In this document: positions 10,091 through 12,033 of the stretch, piece by piece
Numbering within the stretch: the stretch's first letter is position 1
How the letters are laid out: each line of letters opens with the position of its first letter
Virus record (IMG/VR): IMGVR_UViG_3300009163_000196
Coordinates: 1 to 22,667 of that record
Length of the DNA stretch: 22,667 bases
Strand: one strand, 5' to 3'
Source of the DNA: a virus
The notes under the pieces: generated by a model
Seen by the model: the letters and a program-made list of their open reading frames with translations, nothing else
Databases searched by the model: none
What the model was told of the DNA's origin: nothing
Translations under genes and position numbers: made by a program

Positions 10091-10246
10091 TTAATCCACA
10101 AACCAATGCGGACGCAACAGCTTTAATTGCCAAATTCTTGCAATAGGTACAGCTTTCCATTGGGAAATAGCTGGTTGCTTTATCCCTAATAGTTTGGCTA
10201 GATCACTTTGTGAGCCAGCTAATGCAATAAACTTTTCTTTATTCAT
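10091..10246 (-). CDS. Cro-like transcriptional regulator (51 aa)
   Basis: The product, MNKEKFIALAGSQSDLAKLL and on to HWFVD, is a one-domain helix-turn-helix protein of the Cro/YdaS kind: SQSDLAKLLGIKQPAISQW (12-30) is the helix-turn-helix, followed by IARIWQLKLLRP. The frame is open to 10294, but the upstream part encodes implausible residues (MFSLMLLLYKCV) and overlaps the promoter. With the ATG at 10246, the -10 box TATAAT (10259-10254) places the RNA start at or next to the first codon, so the message would be leaderless. A dyad matching those at the two rightward promoters lies on this start. It probably represses all three. Confidence 0.8.
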   Translation of the reverse strand: MNKEKFIALAGSQSDLAKLLGIKQPAISQWKAVPIARIWQLKLLRPHWFVD

Positions 10247-10258
10247 AAGCCACATTAT
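10245..10258. promoter_or_regulatory. Candidate operator at the regulator promoter
   Basis: The plus strand reads ATAAGCCACATTAT: half-sites ATAA and TTAT six bases apart. It shares ATAAG-N5-TTAT with the two rightward promoter sites. It covers part of the -10 box and the start codon of the Cro-like gene, a place that would give autorepression. An 8-base motif inside it (CACATTAT, 10251-10258) recurs in inverted orientation at 10302-10309, possibly a second site. Binding is inferred. Confidence 0.5.
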
Positions 10259-10281
10259 AACACATTTGTATAAAAGCAACA
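10254..10281 (-). promoter_or_regulatory. Leftward early promoter with weak -35
   Basis: The minus strand carries a perfect -10 box TATAAT at 10259-10254. At normal spacing the -35 region (near 10276-10282) does not match TTGACA (TGTTGC or ATGTTG, depending on spacing), so the promoter may be weak or need an activator, as with lambda PRM. The start would fall near 10247, at the regulator's ATG. Confidence 0.5.
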
Positions 10282-10318
10282 TTAGGGAAAACACCTAGAA
10301 AATAATGTGAAATAGTTG

Positions 10319-10346
10319 TTGACATGGGTATAAGGTAGGTTATAAT
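10319..10346 (+). promoter_or_regulatory. Rightward early promoter A (consensus sigma70)
   Basis: TTGACA (10319-10324) and TATAAT (10341-10346) are both perfect consensus elements with a 16-base spacer. The predicted start, about 7 bases after the -10 box, is A10353, the first base of an ATG-CCC-TAG triplet series. The spacer and the -10 box carry the candidate operator. A near-copy lies at 10721-10748. Confidence 0.85.
10330..10343. promoter_or_regulatory. Candidate operator A
   Basis: ATAAGGTAGGTTAT has half-sites ATAA and TTAT six bases apart. It overlaps the spacer and the -10 box of promoter A, where a bound repressor would block RNA polymerase. It aligns base for base in position with operator B at 10732-10745. 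Part of the match comes from the -10 box itself, so the left half ATAAG is the informative part. Confidence 0.55.
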
Positions 10347-10352
10347 TACATC

Positions 10353-10388
10353 ATGCCCTAGCAATTCGCATGGGGTCTTTTTAGGAAA
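10353..10388 (+). promoter_or_regulatory. Leader A: ATG-CCC-TAG mini-frame, hairpin, T-run and ribosome binding site
   Basis: The predicted transcript begins with ATG CCC TAG (10353-10361). The bases CCCTA (10356-10360) can pair with TGGGG (10371-10375), followed by TCTTTTT (10376-10382), the shape of an intrinsic terminator. The AGGA ribosome binding site (10383-10386) for the gene at 10393 begins directly after the T-run. Leader B has the same parts with a different loop. It may be an attenuator or a 5' stabilising hairpin. Confidence 0.6.
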
Positions 10389-10392
10389 TCAA

Positions 10393-10668
10393 ATGAAAAT
10401 TGGTAAATCTTATTGGAGTGTTTCAGTTAGCCAAGACAAGGTTTGGGCAGAAATTGCTTTAACCGAACCGCAAACTGGCATTCGTGCAAACGTCATGCAC
10501 AAATGCAAATTGATCAGGGCAGATATTAAATTGCAATTAAATGGCAAAACTGAATACGCCACAGAAATTGAAGCCCGCAAAGCATTTGCAAAGTTGGATC
10601 AAGAGACTGCTAAGTTTGTAGACGTTAACGAAAACTTCCCAGTTAGTTTGGGTCTTGGTTGGTGTTAA
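10393..10668 (+). CDS. Unknown early protein (91 aa)
   Basis: This is the first gene of the rightward early operon, with an AGGAAA ribosome binding site 6 bases before the ATG. The 91-residue product, MKIGKSYWSVSVSQDKVWAEIAL and onward, looks beta-rich at first, then has a charged helix (TEIEARKAFAKLDQETAKF). No family is recognised. It lies behind a consensus promoter and is followed by a strong hairpin at 10675-10694, so it may be made as a short separate transcript at high level very early. Such genes are often host-takeover or anti-defence factors in phages; that is only a positional guess. Confidence 0.8.
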   Translation: MKIGKSYWSVSVSQDKVWAEIALTEPQTGIRANVMHKCKLIRADIKLQLNGKTEYATEIEARKAFAKLDQETAKFVDVNENFPVSLGLGWC

Positions 10669-10674
10669 GAATGG

Positions 10675-10694
10675 ATGGGGGCTTAGTCCCCCAT
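10675..10694 (+). terminator. Strong hairpin after the first early gene
   Basis: ATGGGGG (10675-10681), a 6-base loop and CCCCCAT (10688-10694) form a perfect 7-bp GC-rich stem 6 bases after the stop codon at 10668. No T-run follows, so it is not a classical intrinsic terminator. It may pause polymerase, act with Rho, or protect the message's 3' end. Its position just before promoter B supports a transcript boundary here. Confidence 0.5.
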
Positions 10695-10720
10695 TAGGGT
10701 AAGTCCTAACAAAATAATTG

Positions 10721-10748
10721 TTGACTTACACATAAGACCGCTTATAAT
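10721..10748 (+). promoter_or_regulatory. Rightward early promoter B (near-copy of A)
   Basis: TTGACT (10721-10726) and TATAAT (10743-10748) are separated by 16 bases, as in promoter A. Flanks are also shared: AATARTTG before the -35, ATAAG at the same place in the spacer, and TCATGCCCTA after the -10. The -35 differs from consensus by one base, so it may be somewhat weaker. It drives the gene at 10791 and probably the recombination genes beyond. Confidence 0.85.
10732..10745. promoter_or_regulatory. Candidate operator B
   Basis: ATAAGACCGCTTAT is a perfect dyad with 5-bp arms (ATAAG and CTTAT) and a 4-base centre. It is the most symmetrical of the three related sites and lies on the -10 box of promoter B in the same register as site A. 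The Cro-like protein encoded at 10091-10246 is the obvious candidate binder. Confidence 0.6.
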
Positions 10749-10754
10749 TCACTC

Positions 10755-10786
10755 ATGCCCTAACTTTTTGGGGTCTTTTAAGGAAA
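10755..10786 (+). promoter_or_regulatory. Leader B: ATG-CCC-TAA mini-frame, hairpin, T-run and ribosome binding site
   Basis: ATG CCC TAA (10755-10763) begins 7 bases after the -10 box, exactly as in leader A. CCCTAA (10758-10763) pairs with TTGGGG (10768-10773), with one T-G wobble and a 4-base loop; TCTTTT (10774-10779) follows, then AAGGAAA (10780-10786) as ribosome binding site before the ATG at 10791. The pairing is kept while the loop differs from leader A, which favours a functional RNA structure. Confidence 0.6.
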
Positions 10787-10790
10787 CCAA

Positions 10791-11063
10791 ATGATTGATA
10801 CCAAACTCCACTATTACTTTGACGATGTTGTGTCTTATGACAACGGCCAGACTGTTGAAAACGTCAAGGTTGGTTATGACTATTACAACGCTGAAGATAA
10901 CTACCCGTATGACTACGATTCTGCGGAAATTTTTGATGTGTTTGTGTTTGATAAACAAGGCAACCACATCACTTATGACATTCCCCAAGATGAATACAAA
11001 CGCATCATGCAAGAAGCCAAAGCCGACTTTGCACAAATTCAGAAAGACCGCAATGAAATCTAA
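10791..11063 (+). CDS. Acidic, Tyr-rich unknown early protein (90 aa)
   Basis: This 90-residue protein has 14 Asp, 6 Glu and 11 Tyr against 6 Lys and 2 Arg, a net charge of about -12. The acidic/aromatic core is DYYNAEDNYPYDYDSAEIFD (30-49). No family is recognised. A small, strongly acidic, first-transcribed phage protein could be a DNA mimic that blocks host DNA-binding proteins, but no homology supports this. It has its own promoter and leader, a good ribosome binding site (AAGGAAA), and its 3' end overlaps the next small gene by 11 bases. Confidence 0.85.
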   Translation: MIDTKLHYYFDDVVSYDNGQTVENVKVGYDYYNAEDNYPYDYDSAEIFDVFVFDKQGNHITYDIPQDEYKRIMQEAKADFAQIQKDRNEI

Positions 11064-11147: not shown

Positions 11148-11333
11148 ATGATTGATCAAATTAAAGAATATATGCGTTTGCCATCAGCCAAAGAACTAGC
11201 GGCTAAAGAACTTGAAATGGCACAGCGCAAGCTGTTAGAGGCTCTCAGCGCCCAAGAATATGCAAAGCGCATGGGTGATTACCACTCAGACAGAATCAAA
11301 CGCCTAACGGCTTATTTAAAGGAAGAAACATGA
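11148..11333 (+). CDS. Small helical phage protein upstream of ERF (61 aa)
   Basis: The frame is open from 11085, but the ATG at 11148 is chosen because a GGAGGGG ribosome binding site lies 7-8 bases upstream. The product, MIDQIKEYMRLPSAKELAAK and onward, is helical: PSAKELAAKELEMAQRKLLEA then YHSDRIKRLTAYL. It ends in an ATGA overlap with the ERF gene, so the two are translationally coupled. It may be a coiled-coil partner of the recombination proteins. No known domain. Confidence 0.75.
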   Translation: MIDQIKEYMRLPSAKELAAKELEMAQRKLLEALSAQEYAKRMGDYHSDRIKRLTAYLKEET

Positions 11334-11941
11334 AAGTTTATCAAGCAATCAACGCCATTCAAGCAGACTTAGCCAAAACTGGAATTTCCAAAGACCGCGT
11401 GAACTCTCAAGGCTCTGGATATAAATTCCGCGGTATTGACGATGTGTATAACGCGATCAGCCCATTGTTGGCAAAACATGGTTTGTGCATTTTGCCCCGT
11501 ATGCTTAACCGCGAATGTACTGACAGAATAAGCGGCAAGGGCGGCAATCTATTCTATGTAGTTGTAGAAGCTGAGTTTGACTTTGTTAGTGCGGAGGACG
11601 GTTCTAAACACACGGTTAAGACGTTTGGTGAAGCAATGGATAGCGGAGACAAGGCCACTAATAAGGCAATGAGTGCCGCGTACAAATATGCCGCATTCCA
11701 AGCGTTTGCCATTCCTACAGAGGGTGACAATGATGCTGATGCGTACACACATGATGTTGCACCAACAATCATTGAGCCAGACAGCATGACAGAACTGTTT
11801 GCGGCTATTGAATCAGCAACCACATTAGACAATTTAAAGATTGCTTACAACGTAGCGTATGCGGCTTGTGATGGCAACAAAGTTTGGCAATTAAAAGTTA
11901 TTGCCGCCAAAGACAAAGCAAAAGAAAGGATACAACTTTAA
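11330..11941 (+). CDS. erf: ERF-family single-strand annealing protein
   Basis: The 203-residue product carries the ERF signature: GSGYKFRGIDDVYNAISPLL (28-47) and KHGLCILP, then beta strands with FYVVVEAEFDF, then GEAMDSGDKATNKAMSAAYK (about 105-124) and AFAIPTEGDND. ERF proteins (P22 Erf type) form rings on single-stranded DNA and anneal complementary strands during phage recombination and genome circularisation. The partner exonuclease lies two genes downstream. Upstream coupling is by ATGA; downstream, the stop shares a base with the next ATG (TAATG). The C-terminal domain beyond residue 140 is less conserved. Confidence 0.93.
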   Translation: MKVYQAINAIQADLAKTGISKDRVNSQGSGYKFRGIDDVYNAISPLLAKHGLCILPRMLNRECTDRISGKGGNLFYVVVEAEFDFVSAEDGSKHTVKTFGEAMDSGDKATNKAMSAAYKYAAFQAFAIPTEGDNDADAYTHDVAPTIIEPDSMTELFAAIESATTLDNLKIAYNVAYAACDGNKVWQLKVIAAKDKAKERIQL

Positions 11942-12033
11942 TGTGGCCTTTCCCACCATTCCCAAACCCAATGGACAAGGGCAACAAAGTGCCTAAATTT
12001 AACCCTGAAAATTATGAGGACGCACCACTATGA
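11941..12033 (+). CDS. Pro-rich microprotein between ERF and exonuclease (30 aa)
   Basis: A 30-codon frame begins in the last base of the ERF stop (TAATG) and ends in an ATGA overlap with the exonuclease start. It encodes MWPFPPFPNPMDKGNKVPKF then NPENYEDAPL: an aromatic/proline head, basic middle and acidic tail. An AAAGGA lies about 12 bases upstream. Exact coupling at both ends argues that it is a real gene. It might bridge the annealing protein and the nuclease, which must act together, but this is a guess. Confidence 0.65.
   Translation: MWPFPPFPNPMDKGNKVPKFNPENYEDAPL

Follow-up and report, generated by a model that had tools for sequence, protein, structure and literature searches.

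Why two unrelated small phage genes, lying one behind the other, should each stand behind the same promoter and the same leader is the question raised by this locus. An earlier note, made from the letters of a 22.7-kb stretch of viral DNA (the window), had described two plus-strand control units in front of these genes, and our analysis bears the observation out: there are two copies of one promoter-leader unit, at 10319-10395 and 10721-10793, with the parts in the same order and at the same spacing. The explanation we favor, at a probability of about 0.72, is that the unit serves uncultured P22-like podoviruses as a modular cassette for early expression, in which early timing, the transcription start, binding by a Cro-like protein, and the role of Erf are predicted from sequence. 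The features are as follows, in window coordinates.

10091 to 10246, minus strand: P22-Cro-family repressor gene (Pfam PF14549, P22_Cro), divergent to the cassettes, ATG at 10246
10246 to 10257, no strand: operator-like but degenerate site TAAGCCACATTA where the repressor gene begins; many relatives have a perfect TAAG-N4-CTTA here
10282 to 10306, plus strand: copy 1 upstream element, TTAGGG...CCTA dyad and A+T-rich AAAATAAT, kept in relatives
10319 to 10346, plus strand: copy 1 promoter TTGACA-N16-TATAAT, 12 of 12 consensus matches
10331 to 10342, no strand: copy 1 operator TAAGGTAGGTTA, an imperfect palindrome between -35 and -10 (AAG-N4-CTT in relatives and in P22 OL/OR)
10353, plus strand: copy 1 predicted transcription start, the A of ATG, 7 nt past TATAAT, placed by spacing
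10355 to 10376, plus strand: copy 1 leader hairpin GCCCTAGC...GCATGGGGT, from the fold and from covariation in relatives
10383 to 10392, plus strand: copy 1 Shine-Dalgarno sequence AGGAAA and spacer to the ATG at 10393, conserved in alignments
10393 to 10668, plus strand: cargo gene 1, 91 aa, no Pfam match and no relative found among the cargo genes
10675 to 10694, plus strand: intergenic inverted repeat ATGGGGG-CTTAGT-CCCCCAT before cassette 2, -11.0 kcal/mol
10694 to 10719, plus strand: copy 2 upstream element, TTAGGG...CCTA and AAAATAATT, kept in relatives
10721 to 10748, plus strand: copy 2 promoter TTGACT-N16-TATAAT, 11 of 12 consensus matches
10733 to 10744, no strand: copy 2 operator TAAGACCGCTTA, a complete palindrome, from the TAAG-N4-CTTA site scan
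10755, plus strand: copy 2 predicted transcription start, the A of ATG, placed by spacing
10757 to 10774, plus strand: copy 2 leader hairpin GCCCTAACTTTTTGGGGT, from the fold and from covariation in relatives
10780 to 10790, plus strand: copy 2 Shine-Dalgarno sequence AAGGAAA and spacer to the ATG at 10791, read from the sequence
10791 to 11063, plus strand: cargo gene 2, 90 aa, unrelated to gene 1, from a family with eight cassette-linked members
11330 to 11941, plus strand: Erf single-strand annealing recombinase, downstream of the cassettes (PF04404, E 8e-23)

The unit, its surroundings, and its relatives

The repeat between the two copies consists of 51 nt at 75% identity and 26 nt at 92%, with offsets of 402 and 398 bases. 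With up to three mismatches allowed, the pattern TTGACW-N5-ATAAG-N5-TTATAATT has exactly two matches in the window, compared with 0.00 in 100 dinucleotide shuffles, and the two cassette promoters are the two best promoter matches in a 9-kb scan. Under a covariance model built from 46 aligned cassettes, both window copies included, the copies score 84.4 and 74.4 bits, and no third copy was found in the window with this model, the next best place reaching 12.5 bits (E = 1.3). An Rfam search gave no match, and a search for tRNA and tmRNA returned none. The conserved block extends upstream of the unit as first described, through TTAGGG...CCTA and AAAATAATT, and upstream of copy 1 the identity to relatives stays at about 93% out to roughly -50. 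Each cassette would comprise the upstream TTAGGG..CCTA and A+T-rich element, a strong sigma70-type promoter, an operator, a hairpin, and a leader, of which the part from promoter to ribosome site takes up some 80-100 bases. The TTAGGG-N6..8-CCTA dyad itself (10282-10297 and 10694-10708) is conserved in many relatives and may be a second protein-binding site. Both window cassettes recur, 402 bases apart and with every compared base the same, in record L007 (IMGVR_UViG_3300027736_000446), a contig of a different assembly, so they are unlikely to be an assembly artefact.

The gene content marks the window as part of a P22-like podovirus genome: the minus strand encodes a portal protein and a terminase of P22 type, and the plus strand carries, in order, the two cassettes, each followed by a small gene unrelated to the other, then erf and the gene for a YqaJ nuclease. 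The divergent repressor matches the P22_Cro family at E 5e-10 and 39.4 bits (gathering cut-off 30.2), and its open reading frame, as listed by the program, extends to 10294. We infer early timing from the position of the cassettes between this Cro-type repressor gene and erf, together with their operator. Two minor features can be recorded here. The repressor's own promoter on the minus strand (TTGCTT..TATAAT, within 10246-10294) ends about 8 nt before the repressor ATG, and the repressor mRNA may therefore be leaderless, as is the lambda cI mRNA. A small conserved reading frame, MWPFPPFPNP..., is found at 11884-12033 between erf and the YqaJ nuclease gene, and in one relative (L164:8084) it stands behind a weak cassette of its own.

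The cassette is widespread among related viral contigs. Starting from IMG/VR scans with short exact patterns, whose hits were then aligned and modelled, the covariance search of related phages that the earlier note had proposed yielded 237 cassettes, 198 of them distinct, from 125 sources that are mostly IMG/VR contigs. Every one of the 50 IMG/VR records searched whole carries one to four matches (E <= 0.001), and 82 further loci were added to these for the cassette total; the true spread is probably larger, because the search patterns favor near-consensus copies. The statement that the genes behind the two units share no evident similarity holds for window genes 1 and 2 and extends to the relatives, whose cargo falls into 63 mutually dissimilar families of small proteins (median 80 aa), defined as BLASTP clusters at E 1e-3, a threshold at which very distant kinship may be missed. 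In some phages, cassettes also lie on the opposite strand at a distance of 2.7-3.5 kb from the main array, not all of them strong matches (L194:5938 (+) and L194:3278 (-); L186:5375 (+) and L186:2711 (-); L164:8084 (+); L161:876 (-)), which hint at a second early unit.

Neither a megablast search with the window nor a blastn search with the consensus, the latter against 50,697 phage records, found anything among named phages. The strict cassette pattern had 0 matches in bacterial genomes, and no cassette was found in 17 loci around terminase relatives. The nearest named records by terminase, MW202674, MW202520, and MW202710, contain no significant cassette (best E 2.3). The first two, phage records from Manatee Spring, have a terminase 79% identical and possess Cro-like and erf genes with nearby AAG-N4-CTT sites, e.g., TTAAGTTAGCTT; the genomes of the cassette phages resemble this arrangement, with ORFans and cassettes apparently added in the interval from cro to erf. 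Terminase relatives in MAG contigs point to conflicting hosts (Burkholderiales, Legionella, Methylococcales) and may lie in misbinned virus contigs.

The leader hairpin and the predicted RNA start

The earlier note took the combination of a kept stem and a changed loop as the mark of selection on structure. The two copies alone, both of which use a CCC/GGG stem, are insufficient for this conclusion, and it is covariation in the relatives that sustains it. Folding energy of single copies was considered as evidence and discarded as uninformative, the window hairpins being ordinary relative to dinucleotide shuffles (z = -0.39 and +0.05). Across the relatives, compensatory changes are present: at the third pair of 55 distinct hairpins there are 48 C-G, 5 G-C, 1 G-U, and 1 U-G, so that all are paired, and none of 2000 shuffled re-pairings was as good. 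Changes on both sides of the stem number 40 against 10.7 in shuffles, counted on the model alignment, which leans towards the model. Searching all of IMG/VR with otherwise identical patterns returned at least 119 loci with CCC/GGG and 17 with CCG/CGG, compared with none for CCC/CGG and one for CCG/GGG, and this single locus is taken as a chance hit because it lacks a ribosome site; among the loci examined, the CCG/CGG class comprises seven distinct hairpins in 17 distinct contexts. On this comparative evidence, the leader stem is real. Two of the outcomes that the earlier note would have taken as refutation, a lack of further copies in related genomes and a lack of covariation in the stem, did not come about.

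What the stem does is suggested mainly by where it lies. The CC of the stem begins 9 nt past the -10 box in 221 of 235 cassettes, and this fixed distance predicts a stem within about 4 nt of the RNA 5' end; with a start 7 nt past the -10 box, as the spacing predicts, the RNA would begin 5'-AUGCCC and the stem at nucleotide 3 or 4, with a standard U-rich and Shine-Dalgarno leader to follow. Secondary structures at the 5' end stabilize mRNA, since RppH and RNase E require single-stranded 5' ends (PMC3997798). Our best guess, for which we would give even odds, is that the hairpin is a structure protecting the 5' end of the mRNA, most likely shielding it from RppH and RNase E and thereby providing the same insulated leader for every cargo gene. 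With its predicted place within a few nucleotides of the 5' end it would resemble the stabilizing stem-loops of the ompA/papA type, but it differs from them in being far smaller, at three to seven pairs. The stem is weak (median -5.0 kcal/mol), and protection may therefore be modest. Counting against the protective reading is the conserved ATG at the predicted start, which it leaves unexplained.

An unlikely alternative is that the hairpin and the UCUUUU behind it form a conditional terminator, or attenuator, stopping transcription near +30 unless an antitermination factor intervenes, in the manner of lambda N/nut or the put RNA of HK022. In its favor, the leaders conserve a G+C-rich hairpin with a T-rich run behind it, and related T4-type elements are called promoter-terminator motifs in a title cited in PMC4503421. 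However, none of 103 hairpins reaches the d'Aubenton-Carafa threshold for an intrinsic terminator (median -22.6, best -4.4), whereas two P22 terminators used as positive controls score 27.8 and 32.8. The stem can also be as short as three or four pairs around a 4-nt loop (GCCC-TAAC-GGGT), and the T-run passes straight into the Shine-Dalgarno sequence.

Slightly less probable is that the hairpin is the binding site of a phage or host protein regulating translation or RNA stability, with Cro as a minor player. Many leaders keep an inner GC/GC stem that closes loops like AAAUC and AAUUC, which would fit such a site, but loops vary widely (UAAC, UUG, AACAAAC, AAAUC) and the inner stem is missing from many copies, which argues against a single sequence-specific RNA reader.

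The conserved ATG invites a further, speculative reading. It stands at the predicted +1 in 167 of 182 distinct leaders (in the window at 10353-10361 and 10755-10763), the stem accounts for its G only, and in 91 of about 165 distinct leaders it opens a Met-Pro-stop frame, with the stop at codon 3. A leaderless Met-Pro-stop minigene as the conserved function was rejected, since variants read CCC CAA, CCG CAA, AAT CCC, and so on. In E. coli, 5'-terminal AUGs upstream of genes with a Shine-Dalgarno sequence can bind ribosomes and affect the downstream gene (PMC4965119). The 5'-terminal AUG under the folded hairpin might conceivably act as a ribosome-loading platform feeding the downstream Shine-Dalgarno start, a long shot as we see it; if true, the leader would, besides acting as a promoter, be a portable starter of translation for whatever gene lies behind it.

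The operator and the divergent Cro-family gene

The ATAAG to which the earlier note drew attention is present in both copies, but it is only the left half of a palindrome, TAAG-N4-CTTA, that lies between -35 and -10. This palindrome occurs there in 42 versions, and its AAG-N4-CTT core is exact in 69 of 103 cassettes; about one-third of cassettes have no perfect core, and the site in window copy 1 is among the imperfect ones. The cassette regions, 328 kb in all, contain 93 TAAG-N4-CTTA sites, compared with about 7 expected, and 70 of the 93 fall inside cassettes, while 21 of the other 23 lie within 92 bp of one. Many records have extra sites on the repressor side. In P22, which served as a control, five of seven AAG-N4-CTT sites in 14 kb fall in the annotated OL and OR regions, and one is between the -35 and -10 of the early right promoter.

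A P22_Cro gene lies divergent to the first cassette, at a distance of 39-135 bp, in all 32 records that have the gene, the window included. An integrase was not found in the 17 records searched for one, and no CI-type repressor was noticed in the cassette phages. The operator is most likely the target of the divergently encoded P22-Cro-family protein, which very probably controls all cassettes together, to go by these arrangements. Acting at a shared operator, Cro would let all copies fire at once on entry and be shut off together. That the cassettes are instead activated, with a factor from host or phage acting at TAAG-N4-CTTA or the TTAGGG..CCTA dyad, seems quite improbable: the palindrome is kept in some copies that have lost a recognizable -35 (TTGAC), e.g., in L005 and L026, as activation would allow, but it overlaps the -10 box and fills the spacer between -35 and -10, the classic place for repression, and the P22 OR region is arranged alike.

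The likeness to P22, in which Cro and C2 act at OR1-3 and OL1-3, thus includes the regulator family (PF14549), the AAG-N4-CTT core, and a site between -35 and -10. P22 differs in that it has a single PR and a single PL, its operators are clustered, and it uses nut antitermination, whereas in the cassette phages the promoter-operator is copied before several genes.

Exchange of the genes behind the cassette

The proposal that the switch accepts any gene behind it is supported by the way homology between related phages stops at the end of a cassette and restarts just before the next. We compared cassettes from different records with promoters at least 87% identical and unrelated genes. This gave 46 pairs of cargo families with near-identical promoters. 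Over the stretch from -50 to +19, counted from the -10 box, their identity stands at 93-95%; within 25-30 nt past the hairpin, at the start codon, it has dropped to the random level of about 25%. Shared blocks end at a cassette and are followed by different genes in L182/L184, L182/L197, L173/L182, L164/L166, L185/L171, and window/L179, and in these phage pairs homology returns either directly after the exchanged gene or roughly 30-50 bp ahead of the next cassette. The cassettes therefore mark the edges of swapped or inserted genes, and the alignments indicate that between phages with near-identical cassettes the cargo has been exchanged and the cassette kept. Recent tandem duplication within each phage, with no exchange of cassettes, is very improbable as the sole source of their likeness, since, although two to four copies often lie within 250-1800 bp on one strand, related phage pairs have the same cassette before different genes with the next cassette again shared, window copy 1 is nearly identical to the L179 cassette before a different gene, and some cargo families stand behind quite different hairpins (L171_4350 vs L166_3554).

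Because all are alike, the cassette copies could serve as recombination homology, plausibly via the phage's Erf annealing protein, and small accessory early genes would in this way be gained, lost, or replaced in the interval from the repressor gene to erf. Erf is encoded downstream in 25 of 33 cassette records searched, and in the other eight, some of them fragments, it was not found; it is a plausible candidate for the driver of cassette recombination.

The intergenic regions show a further regularity. The inverted repeat at 10675-10694 has no U-tract and a terminator score of -8.9, and an intergenic hairpin with z < -1.5 (mononucleotide shuffles) precedes 16 of 42 internal cassettes vs 7 of 53 first cassettes. 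Strong inverted repeats without a U-tract are seen before many internal cassettes (L173, L182, L184, L196, L197, L161, L164, L171), after the preceding gene, similar in shape and different in sequence.

The shuffling of genes by a promoter joined to a stem-loop is not new as such, being known from T4-type phages as PeSLs (promoter early stem loops; Arbiol et al. 2010 and Comeau et al. 2014, as cited in PMC4503421 and PMC3950731). As the two citing papers summarize it, the PeSL is an early promoter with a stem-loop that is repeated before genes in plastic regions and mediates shuffling by recombination, and a PeSL-like motif has been reported in the haloarchaeal virus HGTV-1. Our cassette is like it in joining a sigma70-type promoter, early by prediction, to a stem-loop and in standing, in many copies (237, with 63 cargo families), before unrelated small genes that are exchanged. 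It is unlike it in that the phages are not T4-type myoviruses but have a P22-type portal and terminase, a P22-Cro regulator, and contigs of up to about 39 kb; in that the promoter contains a P22-Cro-type operator, with one to four copies per contig; and in that the stem is fixed 9 nt from the -10 box and the hairpin has no terminator score, the terminator of the PeSL being taken from the 2014 title. The cassette works like a PeSL but is not the T4-type element, a distinction drawn from published descriptions of PeSLs.

Promoter-plus-stem-loop shuffling, on record for T4-type phages and a single archaeal virus, would with this finding reach the small P22-like podoviruses of uncultured hosts and would be tied to a defined repressor-operator pair, giving a concrete rule for the uptake of new early genes. 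The cassette would be, in effect, a natural, insulated expression unit. It is also a sequence tag: the small early proteins that it marks, most of them unannotated, make up 63 families, and in proteins of this class one expects functions in host takeover and anti-defence. Ten representative cargo proteins gave one Pfam match (LPD29) and three PHROGs matches, all of unknown function. Elsewhere, LPD29 is part of large polyvalent phage and plasmid proteins. Here, the LPD29-domain protein (PF18847) is a recurrent cassette-driven gene (L157, L158, L160, L163, L168, L174, L175, L178, L192, L199, L201, L203), usually directly beside cro.
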